Source: Nocardioides panzhihuensis (GTDB taxonomy: Bacteria > Actinomycetota > Actinomycetes > Propionibacteriales > Nocardioidaceae). Taken from it: 64,000 bases of DNA. The stretch lies in contig NZ_JACBZR010000001.1 of the NCBI RefSeq assembly GCF_013408335.1, forward strand, positions 2,914,001-2,978,000, given 5' to 3'. The notes below the pieces were generated by a model that saw only the letters and a list, made by a program, of their open reading frames with translations, was not told the origin of the DNA and did no database searches. The position numbers were made by a program, and so were the translations under genes. Below, in pieces: positions 1,557 to 50,474 of the stretch (the stretch's first letter is position 1; the number at the start of each line of letters is the position of its first letter).

Positions 1557-1602
1557 GTCTTTCTGGGGTTCTCTAATCGTCTCGGTGGGCGGGCGCATCG
1601 GT

Positions 1603-1796
1603 GGTCGAGCTTGTCGAGACCCGTCGCCTCCGCCGGTCGAGCCCGTCGAGACCCGTCGCCTCCGCCGGTCGAGCCGCCGGAGCCGCTAGGCGGAGGCGTG
1701 TCGAGACCAACACAGTCCCTCAGTGATCGAGCTTGTCGAGACCTGCCTCCCGCTGGTCGAGCCGCCGGAGCCGCTAGGCGGAGGCGTGTCGAGACC
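1603..1796. repeat. Cluster of five GGTCGAG...TCGAGACC interspersed repeats
   Basis: Five copies of a short element with GGTCGAG at one end and GTCGAGACC at the other occur within 200 bp. Three are 19 nt (1603-1621, 1635-1653, 1725-1743; core GGTCGAGCTTGTCGAGACC). Two are 42 nt, identical to each other, with a GC-rich insert containing its own inverted repeat (1667-1708 and 1755-1796). Further copies lie at 16376-16394 and, inverted, at 48556-48574. They are non-coding and flank gene ends and the HNH repeat. They look like a dispersed miniature repeat family of this genome. I see no other content in 1561-1800. Confidence 0.7.
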
Positions 1797-1875
1797 AACA
1801 CGGTTCTGGTCGGGGAAACCTCGCTGAGCGACTGTTACTTCGTTTCAGTGTTCGCCGCCGACCCTTCTTCGAGTG

Positions 1876-1966
1876 TTTCTCGATCAGCCGCCGCGTCAAG
1901 GACGGGCTTCGCCCGCCGCTTCGCGGTGGCCTTCGGCCATCCTTGACTCGGCACCTGATCAAGAAA
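1876..1966 (+). other. Branched multi-hairpin element upstream of HNH gene, copy A
   Basis: Outer stem: TTTCTCGATCAG (1876-1887) pairs with CTGATCAAGAAA (1955-1966), 11 of 12 pairs. Inner stem: GTCAAGGA (1895-1902) pairs with TCCTTGAC (1940-1947). Inside sit three perfect hairpins with a TTC loop: GGGC-TTC-GCCC (1904-1914), CCGC-TTC-GCGG (1916-1926) and TGGCC-TTC-GGCCA (1927-1939). The whole forms a four-way junction. The inverted copy keeps both stems but has different hairpin arms that still pair. The element lies about 120 bp upstream of a promoter whose transcript begins at the HNH start codon. It is therefore either a separate small RNA or a DNA structure. Confidence 0.6.
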
Positions 1967-2062
1967 GATTTCGCCATTATCGGGGCGGCGGCGAGGGTGT
2001 GGCGCGGGGTTCAGGTTGCTTGTTCGCTGACTGCGTAAATCGGTTCTGACCAGCAAAAACAG

Positions 2063-2099
2063 GTAGCGCTACGGTACTGTTCCGCATATAATGAGGCGT
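2063..2099 (+). promoter_or_regulatory. Leaderless promoter and GTAGCGCTAC palindrome of HNH gene A
   Basis: A perfect -10 hexamer TATAAT lies at 2087-2092, placing transcription start at about 2099-2100, the A of ATG 2100. The mRNA should be leaderless. The 10-bp palindrome GTAGCGCTAC (2063-2072) sits at the -35 position and resembles LacI-family operators in shape. The same arrangement is kept in the inverted copy at 48259-48295. Confidence 0.6.
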
Positions 2100-3398
2100 A
2101 TGAACGAGACCGTCGACCAGCTCCTCACCGGGCCGCCCCTGGGTGCGTCCGAAGGTGAGCTGGTCGACTGGATCAGCCGGCTCGAAGAAGTGAAGTGCAT
2201 CGCCGAGGCTGTTCAGGCAGAAGCGGCCGTACGCCTCGACGAAGCCACCCGCGCCCGGCAGGCCGAGGCCGGGATCCCTGCCCGCAAGCTCGGCGAAGGC
2301 GTGGCCTCGCAGATCGCGCTGGCGAGGCGGGTCTCACCTGCCAAGGGCGCCAAACTGCTGGGCCTGGCGAAGATCTTGATCACCGAGATGCCGCACACCT
2401 TCGCGTTGATGAAAGCGGGCCTGTTCTCGCAGTGGCAGGCCACCATCCTCGCCCGCGAAACCGCCTGCCTCTCGATGAAGGACCGCCGGGTCATCGACTA
2501 CGAACTCTGCGCTATCGGATCCGATGGTGAACCGCCTGCTGTGGTCACGATGGGGCTGCGGCAAATGGAGAACGCGGCCAAGAAACTCGCGATCACCCTG
2601 GACCAGGAGTCCGTCGTGGCCCGTGCATCGAACGCGGAGAAAGACCGTCGAGTCAGCGTGCGACCGGCACCGGACACGATGACCTGGCTGGGTGCGCTGC
2701 TGCCGGTCAAGGACGGCGTCGCCGTCTACGCCGCACTGGACCAGGCAGCCAAGGCCGCGCAGGCTGCTGGGGATGAACGGACGAGGGGTCAGGTCATGGC
2801 CGACACACTGGCCGACCGCGTCACCGGCCGCACCACCACCGACGGCGCCAAGCCTCGGATCGAGGTCAAGATCGTCATGACCGCCGACGCCCTCACCAAC
2901 GACAGCGACCAGCCCGCGATGGTCGAGGGCTACGGCCCCGTCCCCGCCGCATGGACCCGCGAAGCACTCGCCGACGCCGAGGTCTTCATCCGCAGGCTGT
3001 TCACCGACCCGGCCGGGCAGCTGGTCGCCATGGAATCCCGCTCCCGCAAAGCCCCCGACGGACTCGCCGAGTTCATCACCACCCGCGACGGCGGAATCTG
3101 CCGCACCAACGGCTGCGACGCCCCCATCCGCAACGTCGACCACGCCCAGCGCCACGCTGACGGCGGCAAGACCAGCGCCGCGAACCTCCAAGGGCTCTGC
3201 GAAAGATGCAATCAAGCGAAAGAAGCCCTCGGCTGGCAAGCCAGACCCAGACCCGACGGCAGCATCATCACCATCACACCGACGGGCCATATCTACGTGA
3301 GCCCACCACCCGACACCTGGCTTCCGGGCCCACCACCCCTCTCGCGGGGAGAGTTCGTGCTGCGCGATCTGCTCGTCGACCACACGCTCGCGGCCTGA
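2100..3398 (+). CDS. DUF222 / HNH endonuclease (13E12 repeat family), copy A
   Basis: A 432-residue protein with an N-terminal and central DUF222 domain (about residues 25-290) and a C-terminal HNH nuclease motif. The motif has a C-x4-C pair near 334-339, the Asp-His pair of NVDHAQRHADGG near 346, and C-x2-C in LCERCNQAKE near 366-369. HNH domains use one metal to cut DNA. This family fills the 13E12 repeats of mycobacteria and is multi-copy in Nocardioides; its biological role is unknown. I start at ATG 2100 rather than 2091 because a TATAAT overlaps the earlier ATG. The gene is about 91 percent identical to the copy ending at 46960. Confidence 0.9.
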   Translation: MNETVDQLLTGPPLGASEGELVDWISRLEEVKCIAEAVQAEAAVRLDEATRARQAEAGIPARKLGEGVASQIALARRVSPAKGAKLLGLAKILITEMPHTFALMKAGLFSQWQATILARETACLSMKDRRVIDYELCAIGSDGEPPAVVTMGLRQMENAAKKLAITLDQESVVARASNAEKDRRVSVRPAPDTMTWLGALLPVKDGVAVYAALDQAAKAAQAAGDERTRGQVMADTLADRVTGRTTTDGAKPRIEVKIVMTADALTNDSDQPAMVEGYGPVPAAWTREALADAEVFIRRLFTDPAGQLVAMESRSRKAPDGLAEFITTRDGGICRTNGCDAPIRNVDHAQRHADGGKTSAANLQGLCERCNQAKEALGWQARPRPDGSIITITPTGHIYVSPPPDTWLPGPPPLSRGEFVLRDLLVDHTLAA

Positions 3399-3521: not shown

Positions 3522-3854
3522 ATGAACAACGTCCTCACCCGCATGACCGCCGGCAAGAAGGACTGGAAGCGCATGGAGGCCCGCGCCGCCGAGCTGCCCT
3601 CCGACTACCGCACCGTCTACAGCAAGATGAAGAGCTACATGTGGCCCTTCACCGCCGGTGACGGGATGGACGTCGTCGCCATCCTGCGTGAGATTCTCGA
3701 TCTGTTCGAGACCGAGGCCGCGGCCGGTCGTAAGGTCATCGAGGTCACCGGGACCGACCTGGCCGCCTTCTGCGACGCGCGGCTGCCCAAGGAAGGTGCC
3801 TACCACATCAACCTGCGTGCCCACCTCAACGACGTCGCCTTGAAGCTCTCTTGA
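3522..3854 (+). CDS. DUF1048 family protein
   Basis: A 110-residue soluble protein with the DUF1048 pattern: an N-terminal GKKDWKRMEARAAELP, then SKMKSYMWPFTAGDGMD, then LFETEAAAGRKVIEVTG and DLAAFCD. Members of this family are small helical proteins of unknown function, often encoded beside PadR-type regulators. No such regulator is adjacent here. An AAGGAG-type ribosome site precedes ATG 3522. The MerR-like promoter at 3434-3465 suggests stress or ligand induction. It is monocistronic, lying between the HNH gene and a carrier gene. Confidence 0.8.
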   Translation: MNNVLTRMTAGKKDWKRMEARAAELPSDYRTVYSKMKSYMWPFTAGDGMDVVAILREILDLFETEAAAGRKVIEVTGTDLAAFCDARLPKEGAYHINLRAHLNDVALKLS

Positions 3855-3970: not shown

Positions 3971-6307
3971 CTAGCGGCAGCCCCGCATGCTGGAGGAACA
4001 CAAGTGAACGACTCGGCCCTGCTCTCGGTCGGCCTCCCCATCGCGTTGGCGATCATCATGTTCGGGCTGGGCCTGAGCCTGACTCCGAAAGACTTCCGCC
4101 GAGTCGTACGCACCCCGCGAGCCGTCATCGTGGCGCTCACCCTCCAGATCCTGGTGCTGCCGCTGATCGCGTTCGGGCTGATCCTGGTCGCGGACGTGGA
4201 CCCGCTGATCGCCGTCGGGATCATGCTGCTGGCCGCCTCGCCGGGCGGGACCACGGCCAACCTCTTCAGCCACCTCTTCCGCGGCGATGTCGCGCTCAAC
4301 GTCACTTTGACTGCGGTGAACTCGGTGCTCGCGGCGGTCTCCATCCCGCTGATCACCAACGCCGCGATCGTCTACTTCGATGCCGGCGACACCCTTGGCC
4401 TGCAGTTCGGCAAGGTCGTCCAGGTCATCGCGATCGTGCTCGTCCCCGTCGGCATCGGGATGCTCGTACGGAGCCGGTCCGAGACGTTCGCCGCCCGGGC
4501 GGACAAACCGGTCCGGATCTTCTCGATCGTCGTGCTGGTCATGGTCTCGGTCGGCGCGATCCTCGGCGAGCGGGACAACATCGCCGGCTACCTTCAGGAG
4601 GTCGGCGTCGTCGTGACGCTGTTCTGCTGCGCGAGCCTCTTCCTGGGCTACCTCGGGGCTCGGGTCTTCAAGCTCGGCCAGGCGCAGGCGATCGCGACCT
4701 CGATGGAGGTCGGGATCCACAACACCACCGTGGCCCTCACCATCGCCCTGAGCGTCCTCGACAACACGACCGTCGCCATCCCGGCCGCGGTCTACAGCAT
4801 CGTGATGTACGTCCTCGCCACGGCCTTCGGCTTCCTCATCACCCGCTCGCGCATCGCGCAGCCCGCCGCGACGTACGACGCGACCACCCGGCGATGAAGC
4901 CCGGCGCGGGAAGGAGTACCAGGCTCCGACCGCGCCGAGCACGAGGAGGAAGAGGCAGACCAGCGTGAAGGCAGCGGTGACGGCAGCGACACTGTCGGCC
5001 GGCACGTTCGCGGCGAGCACCGCCTCCCCCAGCCCTGGCGGCAGCAGAGCGGTGAGCAGCGTGAGGGCGATGGCAAGGCTGAGCACGTTGCCGGTGTTCT
5101 GCAGCATCAGACGCGTGGCGTTGACGACGCCGAGCGCATCCTCCGGGGCCCGCTCCAGCAGGACGGTCGCGTTGGTCCCGATGAACAGACCCGTCGCCAA
5201 CCCGACGATCGCGAGGGTCGCCATCACCAACCAGGTCTGCTCGAGGTGGATCGCGAGCGCCACCAGGGCGACGCCGCACGTGCCCACCACCGACCCGCCG
5301 GACATGATCTGGTGCGCCGTCCAGCGGCGGGACAGCCGACCGAGGGTCAGCGAGGCGAGGATCATCCCGACCGGCATCGGCAGCAGCATCAGTCCGGCCG
5401 TGCCAGGGGCAGCACCGACCACGCTCTGGAAGTAGAGACTGGCGAGCACGATCAGCGGGAACCGTCCGGCGCCGGTGAAGAAGCCGGCGAGGAAGAGCCT
5501 CCCCACCCGGCGGATGACCACGACGTCGACCACTGGCGCAGCGGCCCGCCGTTCGATGAGCAGCAGGACCGGGACCAGGAGAAACGATCCCACGATGCCG
5601 CCGATCACCAGGGGATGGCGCCAGCCGAGATCCGTCAGCGAGGTGATCCCGATCGTCAGCATGACGACGGCGATCATGATCACCAGGTTGCCGGGAAGAT
5701 CGAGACCGACGGCTCGCTTGTCCACAACCGGCCGCGGCAGCAGCAGGTGCCCAGCCGCCAGAGCGATCAGGCAGACCGGCACGTTGAGCCAGAACACCCA
5801 CTGCCACCCGACGTGGTCGACGATCAGGCCACCGAGCGTCGGCCCGATCAGGTTGGCTGTCGGGAACGAGGCGGCGTACAGGCCCATGGCGCCCCCCAGG
5901 GAGGCGCGTGGGAAGGCCTGATGGATGAGGGTGGCGCCGTTGCCGATGAGCACCGCACCACCGATGGCGGAGACCACACGGAGACCGATGAGCACCTCGA
6001 CGTTCGGAGCGAAACCGGCCAGGAGACTGGTCACCGAGAAGATGACCAAGCCACCGAGATAGAGCCCGCGCTGCCCCCAGACGTCGCTGAGGCGACCGAA
6101 GAGGAGCAGGCAGGCGGTGTTGGCGACCATGTAGGAGAGCAGCAGCCAGCTCCCTTCCGTGGAGCTCGCGTCGAACTCCCTGCTCAGTGTCGGCAGCGCG
6201 ACGTTCAGCGAGCTGGCGTTGAGCGCCATCACCGCGCTGACCAGGCAGACCACGATCAAGGTGGACCGCGCTGCGGCCGTCACCTCGGCGGGTTGGGACT
6301 CGCTCAT
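3971..6307 (-). CDS. DHA2-type MFS efflux transporter with run-on C-terminus
   Basis: The first 465 or so residues form a 14-helix drug:H+ antiporter-2 type transporter. They start MSESQPAE, carry GRLSDVWGQRG as the loop 2-3 motif A, and have the motif C region ASFPTANLIGPTLGG. The start ATG (6305-6307) has AGGAGG at 6312-6317. The transporter should end near 4890, but there is no stop codon there: the frame continues about 310 more codons, antisense to the carrier gene at 4004-4897, as Asp/Glu/Arg-rich low-complexity sequence up to 3971. A lost stop, a nearby frameshift or a true long overlap are all possible. The other two frames stop at 4839 and 4792. It is divergent from the ABC operon and shares its operator region. 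Confidence 0.75.
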   Translation of the reverse strand: MSESQPAEVTAAARSTLIVVCLVSAVMALNASSLNVALPTLSREFDASSTEGSWLLLSYMVANTACLLLFGRLSDVWGQRGLYLGGLVIFSVTSLLAGFAPNVEVLIGLRVVSAIGGAVLIGNGATLIHQAFPRASLGGAMGLYAASFPTANLIGPTLGGLIVDHVGWQWVFWLNVPVCLIALAAGHLLLPRPVVDKRAVGLDLPGNLVIMIAVVMLTIGITSLTDLGWRHPLVIGGIVGSFLLVPVLLLIERRAAAPVVDVVVIRRVGRLFLAGFFTGAGRFPLIVLASLYFQSVVGAAPGTAGLMLLPMPVGMILASLTLGRLSRRWTAHQIMSGGSVVGTCGVALVALAIHLEQTWLVMATLAIVGLATGLFIGTNATVLLERAPEDALGVVNATRLMLQNTGNVLSLAIALTLLTALLPPGLGEAVLAANVPADSVAAVTAAFTLVCLFLLVLGAVGAWYSFPRRASSPGGRVVRRGGLRDARAGDEEAEGRGEDVHHDAVDRGRDGDGRVVEDAQGDGEGHGGVVDPDLHRGRDRLRLAELEDPSPEVAQEEARAAEQRHDDADLLKVAGDVVPLAEDRADRDHDQHDDREDPDRFVRPGGERLGPAPYEHPDADGDEHDRDDLDDLAELQAKGVAGIEVDDRGVGDQRDGDRREHRVHRSQSDVERDIAAEEVAEEVGRGPARRGGQQHDPDGDQRVHVRDQDQPERDQRQHQDLEGERHDDGSRGAYDSAEVFRSQAQAQPEHDDRQRDGEADREQGRVVHLCSSSMRGCR
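4004..4897 (+). CDS. Bile acid:sodium symporter (BASS) family transporter
   Basis: A 297-residue membrane protein with nine or so hydrophobic helices and typical BASS features: FGLGLSLTPKDFRRVVRTPR near the N-terminus, LLAASPGGTTANLFSHLFRGDVALNV (the first crossover region, about residues 85-110) and SMEVGIHNTTVALTIA (second crossover, about 232-247). These two broken-helix regions carry the sodium and substrate sites in solved members. Bacterial BASS proteins take up pantoate, pyruvate, bile acids or other organic anions. Start is GTG 4004 with GGAGG eleven bases upstream. The gene lies wholly opposite the run-on end of the MFS frame; its clear family identity makes it the real gene on this stretch. 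Confidence 0.88.
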   Translation: MNDSALLSVGLPIALAIIMFGLGLSLTPKDFRRVVRTPRAVIVALTLQILVLPLIAFGLILVADVDPLIAVGIMLLAASPGGTTANLFSHLFRGDVALNVTLTAVNSVLAAVSIPLITNAAIVYFDAGDTLGLQFGKVVQVIAIVLVPVGIGMLVRSRSETFAARADKPVRIFSIVVLVMVSVGAILGERDNIAGYLQEVGVVVTLFCCASLFLGYLGARVFKLGQAQAIATSMEVGIHNTTVALTIALSVLDNTTVAIPAAVYSIVMYVLATAFGFLITRSRIAQPAATYDATTRR

Positions 6308-46959: not shown

Positions 46960-48258
46960 TCAGGCCGCGAGCCTGTGGTCGAGGAGTACGTCGCGCAGCA
47001 CGAACTCGGCCCGGGACAGTGGCGGCGCGTCTGGTTGCCAGGTGTCGGGTGGTGGACTCACATAGGTGTGGCCGGTGGGTGTGATGGTGATGATGCTGCC
47101 GTCGGGTGCAGGTCTGGCTTGCCAGCCGAGGGCTTCCTTGGCTTGATTGCATCTTTCGCACAAGCCTTGAAGATTCGCGGCCTTGGTTTCGCCTCCGTCT
47201 GCGTGGCGCTGGGCGTGGTCGATGTTGCGGATGGGTGCGTCGCAGCCGTTGGTGCGGCAGATCCCGCCGTCGCGGGTGGTGATGAACTCGGCCAGGCCGT
47301 CGGGGGCTTTGCGGGAGCGAGACTCCATCGCCACTAGCTGTCCGGCCGGGTCGGTGAACAGGCGGCGGACGAAGACCTCGGCGTCGTTGAGTGCTTCACG
47401 GGCCCATGCTGCAGGGACGGGGCCATAGCCTTCGACCACGGCCGGCTCGTCACTGTCGTTGGTGAGGGCGTCGGCGGTCATCACGATCTTGACCTCGATC
47501 CGAGGCTTGGCGCCGTCGGTGGTGGTGCGGCCGGTGACGCGGTCGACGAGGGTGTCGGCCATGACCTGACCCCTCGTTCGTTCATCCCCAGCAGCCTGGG
47601 CAGCCTTGGCTGCCTGGTCGAGTGCAGCGTAGACGGCGACGCCGTCCTTGATCGGTAACAGGACACCGAGCCAGGTCATCGTGTCCGGTGCCGGCCGGAC
47701 GCTGACCCGGCGGTCCTTCTCCGCGTTCGCGGCTCGCTTGACGACGGATTCCTGGTCGAGGGTGATCGCGAGTGTCTTGGCCGCGTTCTCGAGCTGTCGC
47801 AGCCCCATGGTCACCGCCGCAGGCGGTTCGCCGTCGGGGTCGAGGGCGCAGAGCTGGTAGTCGATGACTCGGCGGTCGTCTAGTGAGAGGCAGGCGGTCT
47901 CGCGGGCGAGGATGGTGGCTTGCCACTGCGAGAACAGGCCCGCTTTCATCAACGCGAAGGTGTGGGGCATCTCGGCGACCAAGATCTTCGCCAGCCCGAG
48001 CAGTTTGGCGCCCTTGGCCGGTGAGACCCGCCGGGCGAGCGCGATCTGGGAGGCGACGCCTTCGCTCAGCTTGCGGGAAGGGACCCCGGCCTCGGCCTGG
48101 CGTGCCCGGGTGGCTTCCTCGAGGCGTACGGCTGCTTCTGCTTGCACGGCCTCAGCGACGCACTTGATCTCTTCGAGCCGAGCGATCCAGTCGACGAGCT
48201 CGCCCTCGGACGCACCCAGGGGCGGCCCGGTGAGGAGCTGGTCGACGGTCTCGTTCAT
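46960..48258 (-). CDS. DUF222 / HNH endonuclease (13E12 repeat family), copy B
   Basis: A 432-residue protein, about 91 percent identical by eye to copy A; most changes are conservative. All HNH residues are kept: CRTNGC, NIDHAQRHADGG and LCERCNQAKE. Changes cluster in the linker around residues 95-175 and in the last 30 residues, so both copies look functional rather than decaying. ATG 48258 follows a perfect TATAAT (reverse strand, 48266-48271) by seven bases, giving a leaderless message as in copy A. Downstream it converges with the CMD-like gene. Confidence 0.9.
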   Translation of the reverse strand: MNETVDQLLTGPPLGASEGELVDWIARLEEIKCVAEAVQAEAAVRLEEATRARQAEAGVPSRKLSEGVASQIALARRVSPAKGAKLLGLAKILVAEMPHTFALMKAGLFSQWQATILARETACLSLDDRRVIDYQLCALDPDGEPPAAVTMGLRQLENAAKTLAITLDQESVVKRAANAEKDRRVSVRPAPDTMTWLGVLLPIKDGVAVYAALDQAAKAAQAAGDERTRGQVMADTLVDRVTGRTTTDGAKPRIEVKIVMTADALTNDSDEPAVVEGYGPVPAAWAREALNDAEVFVRRLFTDPAGQLVAMESRSRKAPDGLAEFITTRDGGICRTNGCDAPIRNIDHAQRHADGGETKAANLQGLCERCNQAKEALGWQARPAPDGSIITITPTGHTYVSPPPDTWQPDAPPLSRAEFVLRDVLLDHRLAA

Positions 48259-48295
48259 ACGCCTCATTATATGCGGAACAGTACCGTAGCGCTAC
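48259..48295 (-). promoter_or_regulatory. Leaderless promoter and GTAGCGCTAC palindrome of HNH gene B
   Basis: Same arrangement as copy A: TATAAT on the minus strand at 48266-48271 and the palindrome GTAGCGCTAC at 48286-48295. Both copies are identical across this block, including the flanking CAGG and CGGTACTGTTCCGCA. Confidence 0.6.
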
Positions 48296-48391
48296 CTGTT
48301 TTTGCTGGTCAGACCCGATTTGCGCAGTCCGTGAACAAGTACCCTGGACCCCGCGCCACACTCTCGCCGCCGCCCCGATAATGGCGAAATC

Positions 48392-48484
48392 TTTCTCGAT
48401 CAGGTGCCGAGTCAAGGACCGCGAAGCGGCCGGCGAAGCCGGCGGGCCGAAGGCCCGTCCTTGACGCGGCGACTGATCGAGAAA
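48392..48484 (-). other. Branched multi-hairpin element upstream of HNH gene, copy B
   Basis: On the minus strand TTTCTCGATCAG (48473-48484) pairs perfectly with CTGATCGAGAAA (48392-48403). GTCAAGGA pairs with TCCTTGAC inside it. Between them lie GGGCC-TTC-GGCCC, CCGGC-TTC-GCCGG and CCGC-TTC-GCGG. Compared with copy A both stems are kept, and the outer one lacks A's single mismatch. The first two hairpins are longer and the third is different, but all arms stay complementary. The rest of 48259-48581 is the conserved spacer of the repeat and contains no gene. Confidence 0.6.
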
Positions 48485-48555
48485 CACTCGAAGAAAGGGT
48501 CGGCGGCGAACCCCGCAACGAAGAAACGGTCGCTTAGCGAGGTTTCCTCAAGGGA

Positions 48556-48581: not shown

Positions 48582-50474
48582 TCAGTCGATGTGGAAGTCG
48601 CTCACGTTGACATCCACAGCCACCACGTCGATGTCGAAGTAGTCCTCGACCGCCTCGATCACCTTGGTGCGGATGGTGACAGCGTTGGCCTTGACCTGGG
48701 TGCCGTAGGTGATCACGTAGGACACGGTGATGTTGGCGACATCGTCGGCGATGTCGACCACGGTGCCCTCGTCGTCGATGGCGTGTACGCCCTCGACCTT
48801 GGCCACGATGTGGTGGACCAGGCGCTCGACGAGACCCTCGCTCACGGTCGACTTGCCGCGCTCCTCGCGGGCGGCACGGGCGGCGCGCAGGACACCGGTC
48901 AGAGTCGAGTCGGCGGTCGGCTCCGGCTCGACGACCGGCTCCGGCGCGAAGCCGGGCGCGGGGGTCTCGGACACGATCTCCTCGGTCACGGTGTCGACGG
49001 CGTCGGCGACCTCATCGGCGGGCGCCTCGGTGGCGTCCTCGGTCGGCGCCTCGGTGGCGTCCTCGGTCGGCGCCTCGTCGACGATCACCTCGGTGTCGTC
49101 GACCTCGACCTCGGTCTCGGTCTCCATGGGCGCCTCCTCGACCACGTCGGTCGGTTCGCCAGCCGTCTCGGCCTCCTCGACCTCCTCGGCAGGCTCGTCA
49201 ACAGCCTCAACGGTCATGTCGGCGTCCTCGGCCTCCACTTCGGTCGCCTCATCGGCCTCGGGAGCCAGGACGACGTCCTCGGTCTCCATCAGCGTCTCCT
49301 CGACGACAGCAGCCTCCTCGGCCGGCGCCTCGTCCTCGACGACGTCGACGATCTCCGCGTCGCCCTCGACCGACTCGGCCACGTCAGCAGCCTCGTCGAC
49401 AACCTCGTCGGCCGGCTCGGCGTCGAGCTCCTCCGACTCGGCCAGGTCGGCCGACTCGACCGTCTCCTCGGGCTCGACGTCGGCCAGCTCGTCCTCCGCC
49501 TCACCGACGGTCTCCTCGGTCACCTCGGCGTCGGCCTCGACCGTTCCGGTCGCGTCGGCCGACGCGAAGGAATCGATGACCTCGACCTCGGACGACTCAC
49601 CCTCGTCCGCGGTCACCGCGGCATCCTCAACCTCGGTCGGCTCCTCGGCAGCGACCTCCTCGTCGAGCGCCGCACCCTCCGGCTCGACGACGGTCTCCAC
49701 GACCTCGTCGGACTCGATCGCGTCGGCGGGCACGAAGGTGTCCTCGGCGTCGACCTCGACCCCGTCAGGCTCGGTGATCTCAGCGACGTCCTCGGTCGCA
49801 CCTTCGACGGCAACGTCCTCGGCAACGACCTCGTCCGCGGCGTCCGTCACCTCGGCGTCCGTCACCTCGGCGTCCGTCACCTCGGCGTCCGTCACCTCGG
49901 CGTCCGTCACCTCGGCGTCGATCGCGTCGACAACGGCCTCGGTCTCCGGCGCCTCGTCGACCGCCGTCTCCTCGACAGCGGGCTCCTCGGCAGTGGGCTC
50001 CTCGACAACGGGCTCCTCGACCTCCTCGGTGGTCTTGGCGACGGCGGCTTCGGCGTCGACGCCCTCGAGCGGCGCCTCGTCTACAGCCTCGACGGGCTCG
50101 GTCACGGCGACCTCACCGACGACGTCGCTGTCCACCTCGCCACTGATCTCGACCGTCTCGACGGCGAGCTCGGCCACCTCGGCAGCCGGGGCCTCCTCGG
50201 TGTCGGTGACGACGTGCTGGGGGTCGGAGAGCGGGTCGACCGCGGGGGCCTCGGAGATGGGCTCGATGACGGGCTCGGCGGTGGCCTCAGCAACCGGCTC
50301 GACGACCGGTTCGGCGACCGGCGAAGCCGGGGGCTCGGTGACGTACACGCTGGCCTCGGGGGCAGCCAGGCTCTCGCCGTAGCCGGGGGCGGAGACGTCG
50401 GTCGACTCGCCCTCCCCGGCCTTCGGCTGCTCGTTCTTGTGACGGTTGAAGATGCCGCTGATGAAGTCGGACAT
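48582..50474 (-). CDS. Asp23/Gls24 family protein with very long acidic N-terminal region
   Basis: A 630-residue protein. The last 90 residues, from TVSEGLVERLVHHIVAKVEG through VSYVITYGTQVKANAVTIRT to FDIDVVAVDVNVSDFHID, form an Asp23/Gls24 domain, a small fold linked to envelope stress and membrane organisation. The preceding 500 or so residues are almost only Glu, Asp, Ala, Val, Thr and Pro, clearly disordered and highly negative. They include a perfect five-unit repeat (AEVTD, about residues 185-210) and a doubled APTEDATE. Usual Asp23 proteins have 100-200 residues. There is no signal peptide, so a cytoplasmic acidic brush is likely. The N-terminus MSDFISGIFNRHKNEQP is amphipathic. Confidence 0.8.
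   Translation of the reverse strand: MSDFISGIFNRHKNEQPKAGEGESTDVSAPGYGESLAAPEASVYVTEPPASPVAEPVVEPVAEATAEPVIEPISEAPAVDPLSDPQHVVTDTEEAPAAEVAELAVETVEISGEVDSDVVGEVAVTEPVEAVDEAPLEGVDAEAAVAKTTEEVEEPVVEEPTAEEPAVEETAVDEAPETEAVVDAIDAEVTDAEVTDAEVTDAEVTDAEVTDAADEVVAEDVAVEGATEDVAEITEPDGVEVDAEDTFVPADAIESDEVVETVVEPEGAALDEEVAAEEPTEVEDAAVTADEGESSEVEVIDSFASADATGTVEADAEVTEETVGEAEDELADVEPEETVESADLAESEELDAEPADEVVDEAADVAESVEGDAEIVDVVEDEAPAEEAAVVEETLMETEDVVLAPEADEATEVEAEDADMTVEAVDEPAEEVEEAETAGEPTDVVEEAPMETETEVEVDDTEVIVDEAPTEDATEAPTEDATEAPADEVADAVDTVTEEIVSETPAPGFAPEPVVEPEPTADSTLTGVLRAARAAREERGKSTVSEGLVERLVHHIVAKVEGVHAIDDEGTVVDIADDVANITVSYVITYGTQVKANAVTIRTKVIEAVEDYFDIDVVAVDVNVSDFHID
49846..49920 (-). repeat. Five perfect 15-nt tandem repeats inside the Asp23 gene
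   Basis: The unit GTCACCTCGGCGTCC (plus strand) occurs five times without interruption at 49846-49920, with a single change in the last base. It encodes AEVTD on the minus strand. The near-identity at nucleotide level implies recent slippage expansion; length variation between strains is likely. Confidence 0.85.

Follow-up and report, generated by a model that had tools for sequence, protein, structure and literature searches.

Cloverleaf-forming DNA at the edges of DUF222/HNH gene units in Nocardioides: a probable structured end of a mobile element

A three-armed, cloverleaf-like fold of about 140 nt stands at one or both ends of units that carry a DUF222/HNH gene in Nocardioides. The fold varies in a compensatory manner, has a single orientation at the unit ends, and belongs to units that are present in one species and absent from another; the copies group by genome and not by site. 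With moderate confidence, we propose that the cloverleaf forms a structured DNA terminus of a mobile unit that carries this gene, and that it is probably used by the nuclease of this unit. Because the fold appears to be kept foldable by matched mutations at one or both gene ends, the comparison of sequences suggests an undescribed kind of mobile DNA. In the open-access literature searched, we found nothing on cloverleaf or palindromic ends of DUF222/13E12 elements. What is new here is the end structure of a mobile repeat family, while a new class of element depends on the action of the enzyme.

The analysed stretch, called the window, comprises 64,000 nucleotides of the 6.3 Mb genome of N. panzhihuensis (G000:C1:2914001-2978000). 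The original prediction described a cloverleaf in two copies, and both are present. However, one outer stem is less regular than had been stated, and two further stems, an outermost one and a 4-bp stem between the outer and inner stems, had been overlooked. The features are as follows.

1854..1992, + strand: cloverleaf copy A, full extent, read from the outside into the unit; the whole model is matched, as in the other 140 rows
1854..1864, + strand: outermost stem of copy A, 5′ arm, GCCGCCGACCC; pairs with 1982-1992 at 10 of 11 positions
1982..1992, + strand: outermost stem of copy A, 3′ arm, GGGGCGGCGGC; partner of 1854-1864
1876..1887, + strand: outer stem of copy A, 5′ arm, TTTCTCGATCAG; pairs with 1955-1966 at 11 of 12 positions
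1955..1966, + strand: outer stem of copy A, 3′ arm, CTGATCAAGAAA; partner of 1876-1887
1895..1902, + strand: inner stem of copy A, 5′ arm, GTCAAGGA; pairs with 1940-1947
1940..1947, + strand: inner stem of copy A, 3′ arm, TCCTTGAC; partner of 1895-1902
1903..1915, + strand: hairpin 1 of copy A, CGGGC-TTC-GCCCG; the loop on the bottom strand is GAA
1916..1926, + strand: hairpin 2 of copy A, CCGC-TTC-GCGG, from the hairpin parse
1927..1939, + strand: hairpin 3 of copy A, TGGCC-TTC-GGCCA, from the hairpin parse
2091..3398, + strand: DUF222/HNH gene, copy A, 435-aa open reading frame, recognised by Pfam
3522..3854, + strand: DUF1048 gene, common, whole or mostly, to the L089 and L094 copies
46960..48267, - strand: DUF222/HNH gene, copy B, 435-aa open reading frame, recognised by Pfam
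48366..48507, - strand: cloverleaf copy B, of which the previously reported 48392-48484 is the inner part

In the outer stem of copy A, A1961 stands opposite C1881; the stem of copy B is perfect. When both strands of both copies were folded as RNA, the z values against dinucleotide shuffles were -5.5, -6.6, -7.8 and -7.3, and none of 200 shuffles was as stable. The three hairpins are present in the RNA minimum-energy fold of copy B and absent on either strand of copy A, and with DNA parameters they form on both strands of copy A. An Rfam scan of the window at the gathering threshold matched no family. A UUCG tetraloop RNA was rejected by sequence reasoning: given these arms, the UUC triplet is out of the tetraloop register.

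The pattern GTCAAGGA-N15..45-TCCTTGAC occurs at 27 places in the genome, against one for the backward control, and a 266-base query gave 50 genome matches, some of them as inverted pairs flanking DUF222 genes. From this genome 37 regions were taken, chosen by element and gene matches: 31 with a cloverleaf and six DUF222 loci without one. Of the 41 copies that were aligned, 27 served to build a model, R1. The 14 copies left outside the build (in six the second hairpin is shorter, four contain a 24-nt insert, and the other four include L083 and L093, in which the first hairpin is unpaired) all re-enter the counts below. R1 detects 43 cloverleaves at 31 loci; an insertion interrupts two of the 43. 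Thus, both HNH repeats of the window do carry the element, as had been claimed, but these two were an undercount.

Pfam DUF222 gives 34 matches in this genome, which correspond to 33 genes after joining of two pieces. A correctly oriented cloverleaf lies within 4 kb of 27 of the 33 genes (upstream of 26, and on both sides, inverted, of 11); six genes are without one. Viewed from the cloverleaf, 38 of 43 are within 4 kb of a Pfam DUF222 gene, and the remaining five are at four loci that lack such a gene. The cloverleaf loci L077, L083, L100 and L101, which show no DUF222 match nearby, contain internal palindromes such as GAACGAATTTTCGTTC and are possibly non-autonomous derivatives. When three of them were compared with MITEs, which are short, gene-less units with the same ends, L077 (484 nt) and L100 showed a single full cloverleaf, and L083 a second, interrupted one.

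Under strict filters, R1 was applied to 58 genomes, the own genome included. It matched G000, G001 (N. albertanoniae), G015 (N. turkmenicus KC13) and G011, gave a single match each in G009 and G056, and gave none in 52. Among 396 genomes drawn from the phylum, again with strict filters and with few candidates scored per genome, the own genome alone was matched. As the own-genome regions had been chosen by element and gene matches, the association was assessed on a second set as well. A pattern search, queried with ten full-unit proteins and able to reach close relatives, yielded 72 loci in GTDB genomes, all from Nocardioides. Among the best 150 cloverleaf matches at these loci, an upstream cloverleaf was found at 53 of the 58 loci that offered more than 450 nt of upstream sequence, at a median of 215 nt from the match (the five others are L291, L304, L305, L313 and L338). 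By the same count, an inverted downstream cloverleaf was found at 28 of 66 loci with more than 1 kb downstream, and cloverleaves on both sides at 17 of 52 loci with room on both sides. None of these best 150 matches had the wrong orientation relative to the gene. The predicted link to DUF222/HNH genes is therefore borne out both in the own genome and in other Nocardioides.

A general link to 13E12 repeats was not seen. Besides the six own genes without a cloverleaf and the 396-genome draw, inverted repeats on two sides were found at none of 30 DUF222 loci, taken one per relative from 30 of the 58 genomes, in a test that detected three of three positive controls and to which single-ended units are invisible. 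DUF222 itself is present in 55 of the 58 related genomes, with up to 33 in one. These Pfam counts are lower bounds: for N. albertanoniae Pfam reports four, although DUF222-homologous genes fill 15 units there.

We then considered whether pairing is retained while the sequence changes. The covariation set held 100 loci: 31 from the own genome, 15 from N. albertanoniae and 54 of the 72 pattern-search loci, picked for having matches. With a threshold at which reverse-strand matches drop out, 141 cloverleaf matches were obtained in 99 loci. In the alignment, which was fitted to R1, 95.5% of 6187 cells are paired. Double changes occur in 17 of 45 pairs, against 7.9 in shuffles, and this number was reached in 0 of 500 shuffles; the double-change cells number 206 against 47.6. 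Four of five covariation measures were never met in the 500 shuffles, whereas the number of further pair types was ordinary (56 of 500). When the partners were slid by one to three columns as a control, only 2-7 pairs showed a double change. The signal is distributed unevenly. Helix 2 (the outer stem) has a double change in seven of eight modelled pairs, while helix 1 (the outermost stem), with 92.7% of cells paired, is nearly invariant and offers little covariation to judge. Three of the modelled pairs fail to form in many rows: 8-173 in 95, 51-129 in 31 and 52-128 in 47. These results support the selected fold that had been read from the two window copies.

Because the pair counts rest on an alignment fitted to the model, the hairpins were also parsed without it. 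This parse found a recognisable core in 140 of 141 cloverleaves, 63 of them distinct. Of the 63 distinct cores, 55 fold into three perfect hairpins, each with a loop of 3-4 nt (of the eight that fail, three are unparsable); none of 1260 letter-shuffled cores does so. Change at a single site is illustrated by hairpin 1, which is CGGGC-TTC-GCCCG in window copy A and CGCCC-TTC-GGGCG in the unit that occupies this site in N. turkmenicus. Within the clade examined, the stems are conserved and covary, and the fold is associated with HNH genes.

Selection is not the sole process that can give such changes. Template switching at quasi-palindromes keeps arms matched and is another source of compensatory change. 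The cloverleaves might then be passive, functionless palindromes whose arms are held in perfect match by hairpin-templated mutation together with gene conversion, and the clustering of copies by genome, described below, would suit this. Against it speak the loops, of which 169 of 180 retain T and C at their edges although any of the four bases can stand in the middle, the constant orientation relative to the gene in the best 150 matches, and the occurrence of the fold in the units of several species. We give passive palindromes the smallest probability of the explanations considered.

The loops are informative about the nature of the folded molecule. Among the 180 loops of 60 parsed distinct cores, the 169 regular ones read C(TNC)G or C(TNNC)G; the 11 that deviate comprise five broken first hairpins and six others. 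On the complementary strand, the same loops read C(GNA)G or C(GNNA)G. GNA and GNNA loops closed by at least two G-C pairs are described as forming extraordinarily stable DNA mini-hairpins (PMC4686876). Because the complementary-strand loops are of this DNA mini-hairpin type, folded DNA is favoured over RNA. The bottom strand is the more stable one in 106 of 139 sequences by DNA parameters (by a mean of 2.3 kcal/mol) and in 79 of 139 by RNA parameters, which lends modest further backing to a DNA fold, as G-T pairs also contribute to the difference. The loop rule is thus a case in which the drift of the sequence itself marks DNA, not RNA, as the working fold, and of the two options originally put forward, the DNA structure is the one that it supports.

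The other option, a separate small RNA, has lost ground. Read as RNA, the element would act as an insulator or as a terminator in both directions, or would be a structured RNA of its own. The great stability of both strands accords with this, and many D-end flanks start shortly after the stop codon of a neighbouring gene, as judged by eye. In contrast, the fold is inverted at both ends of many units, the bottom-strand loops follow the rule given above with five of eight tetraloop types on that strand not being GNRA, no Rfam family matches, and no T-run was seen by eye after the fold. An RNA element is therefore very unlikely in our estimation.

Structured DNA at a unit end, the reading we prefer, is best seen in the simplest full units. 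These consist of a cloverleaf, a DUF222/HNH gene and an inverted cloverleaf, and measure about 1.8-2.0 kb. Nine are present in N. albertanoniae (1831-1981 nt), and in the own genome L084 (1906 nt) and L106 (1935 nt) are examples. Full units have a sharp outer edge, and by eye the likeness of the two ends extends about 20 nt outside the cloverleaf. The terminal inverted repeats of full units are absent in units of the window type, which have a single cloverleaf upstream of the gene and REP-like palindromes outside it; no second structured end was found in the regions examined. Together with the two-sided counts given above (17 of 52 loci, 11 of 33 own-genome genes), this speaks against the unit-end reading. 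In the window itself, REP-like palindrome arrays of the form GGTCGAG..GTCGAGACC occupy 1602..1796, outside the cloverleaf, and similar arrays stand beside many own-genome units. L091 was compared with ten other window-type copies. In five of them the similarity stops no more than 2 nt from the stop codon, in two (L076 and L085) 10-16 nt from it, and in one (L095) inside the gene; in two it continues into or through a DUF1048 gene.

Longer units of the own genome also contain transposase genes, of IS110 type in five and of integrase-core (rve) type in three. At L081, L082, L087, L096 and L102, an IS110-family gene follows an early-ending beta DUF222 frame, which in L081 was seen to stop in the HNH motif. 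The gene is absent from the same-site N. albertanoniae units L180 and L183, which are too short to hold it, and this suggests repeated insertion at one target. In L083 (2988-4355) and L103 (2916-4283), a second IS110-type element interrupts the cloverleaf, and its position in the model is the same in both. The rve transposase gene encodes 484 aa and occurs in both orientations (L078, 2717-4174; L080, 2740-4194; L103, 4472-5926).

These genes raise the question of whether a host enzyme, for example a DDE or IS110 transposase, moves the units in trans with DUF222/HNH as a passenger. The presence of such genes in these units, the IS110 elements inside two cloverleaves and the gene-less cloverleaf loci are in keeping with this. 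However, no known transposase was seen to be common to all units: IS110 and rve genes are confined to some own-genome units, rve in either orientation, the nine N. albertanoniae units of 1.8-2.0 kb are too small for such an insert, and no Y1 transposase is found in the three host genomes. We judge mobilisation in trans to be improbable.

Presence and absence of units between species bear directly on mobility. The N. albertanoniae unit L179 is absent from G000, G011 and G015, where the flanking genes adjoin. The window-type unit L086 is absent from N. turkmenicus, with 12 nt between the flanks, and from N. albus, with 7 nt between the flanks and 45 nt past the stop codon also missing; MAG-46 has the unit. 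L104 is absent from G015, G011 and G001. The L079 site is empty in G001 (N. albertanoniae) and elsewhere holds other sequence, of about 840-860 nt in G015 and G011 or 137-211 nt in MAG-46 and N. albus. In L079, L086 and L104, REP-like palindromes belong to the segment that the empty sites lack. Neither a target-site duplication nor an exact cut position could be read at the four empty sites (L179, L079, L086 and L104), whose flanks are about 74-97% alike. As inferred from these alignments, insertion would be the simplest reading of presence and absence at the four sites, with loss in the relatives as the alternative. Most units are old: when 30 flank matches in N. albus and MAG-46 were inspected, a cloverleaf or a DUF222 gene was reached from 26 and neither from the other four.

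Several further sites were rejected as clean empty sites. At window site A, which is occupied in N. turkmenicus, the absence in N. albertanoniae extends to window position 4901 and includes two further genes; at window site B, other sequence is present in that species. The flanks of L181 are separated by 7.5 kb in G000 and by 9 kb in G011, and lie on two contigs in G015. L085 is not clean, and at L078 in N. albus the cloverleaf is absent and the other flank aligned poorly. It should also be mentioned that at L360 (G001 C1:3111600-3114000), L358 and L359, sites that hold DUF222 units in the own genome have other genes in relatives. By reading alone these are P450-like and methyltransferase-like, as if the sites resembled insertion hotspots.

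Copies cluster by genome. In all 12 same-site comparisons (10 sites, two species each; site identity for L185, L188 and L189 rests on one flank), the gene is 65-80% like its same-site partner versus 86-97% like a copy in its own genome, and in seven of the 12 the other subfamily occupies the site. This pattern reflects gene conversion, homing or repeated replacement. M. tuberculosis REP13E12 regions are described as gene-conversion hotspots (PMC13061034), and the clustering seen here agrees with that description.

The same observations fit homing only, in which the cloverleaf is a cut site for copy-to-copy gene conversion and not a transposon end, and insertions arise by rare illegitimate recombination. 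Besides the clustering and the exchange of subfamily at a site, the single cloverleaf of window-type units, the ending of similarity at the stop codon in five of ten compared copies and the REP13E12 gene conversion described in PMC13061034 are in its favour. What it leaves unexplained are the inverted cloverleaves of full units with their sharp outer edge and the similarity of the ends beyond it, together with the four units at sites that are empty in relatives. We regard homing only as unlikely.

The candidate enzyme follows from the gene content. DUF222/HNH is the only long gene recognised in the simplest units. Both window genes and the alpha genes of L084, L088, L106 and L193 exceed the Pfam cut-offs for DUF222 and HNH; the beta genes of L177, L181 and L183 have only a sub-threshold HNH match and no DUF222 match in Pfam, and are homologous to the alpha genes. 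The Y1 transposase domain (PF01797) was found in none of the three host genomes, whereas five of 14 control genomes matched. Enzymes that cleave branched DNA, for example T4 endonuclease VII, are found among the HNH-type folds. We therefore propose the HNH protein as the cloverleaf enzyme. In a profile search against solved structures, all matches (McrA, a maturase, IscB and a Cas9; best E 0.0035) fell in the HNH part, and the AlphaFold model was poor (mean pLDDT 59.8) and too weak for a structure search.

A possible cycle can be outlined. The working form would be the strand complementary to the outside-to-inside reading, either as single-stranded DNA or as the arm of a cruciform. Its three arms would be capped by the extra-stable GNA/GNNA loops, and its 3′ end would face outside at both ends of the unit. 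The HNH nuclease of the unit may recognise the folded or extruded cloverleaf and cut or nick there. The unit might then be copied when the break is repaired against another copy or, less often, when it inserts at a new site, in a homing-like or transposition-like cycle. If so, the units would constitute a new class of mobile element, in which a DUF222/HNH nuclease mobilises cloverleaf ends that are single-stranded, folded and capped by GNA loops; this stronger claim is tentative, and we think it somewhat likelier to be wrong than right. Should the nuclease act on the cloverleaf, the HNH enzymes would count among those that mobilise DNA by way of folded strands. According to PMC13061034, REP13E12 regions have no defined biological function. 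With the cloverleaf, a defined candidate substrate lies next to the gene, a folded DNA whose sequence is known, and the question of function becomes a simple assay.

The units share single features with several known systems. The 13E12/REP13E12 repeats have the same protein family, are multicopy and undergo frequent gene conversion (PMC13061034), but in the literature searched no structured end is mentioned for them, and the 30 DUF222 loci of relatives are without two-sided inverted repeats. The analogy to REP palindromes and RAYT proteins that had been drawn is useful as logic, since palindromes are associated with a single nuclease gene and short gene-less derivatives exist; it fails for the enzyme, as PF01797 is absent from the three host genomes, and here a three-armed fold of about 140 nt ends a gene-carrying unit. 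Membership in REP/RAYT or IS200/IS605 was rejected on the lack of a Y1 match in those genomes. The ends of IS200/IS605 elements are hairpins that act as folded single strands, and this is the likeness; in contrast to these elements, no Y1 TnpA match was found in the three genomes, and the ends of full units are inverted and similar. In the integron attC site, the substrate is the folded bottom strand of an imperfect palindrome, as may apply here, but the cloverleaf has three arms. In AAV-type terminal repeats, each end of a short unit has a stem that encloses smaller palindromes; the likeness is one of shape only, and proteins and lifestyle are unrelated.

Some variants of the fold were also observed. 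At L299, L298 and L312 (N. luteus and N. albus), two or three cloverleaves stand in tandem at one unit end. The 24-nt insert carries a TCGA-GCTTG-TCGA mini-palindrome in the inner stem, like an extra arm, and is found at the downstream ends of L078, L088, L103 and L106; an insert at the same place in N. turkmenicus L192 and L193 extends it to two species. In the window, a tandem repeat of GGCGTCCGTCACCTC was seen by eye at about 49840-49920, within the long gene at 48582-50474, which has an Asp23 match under the Pfam cut-off.
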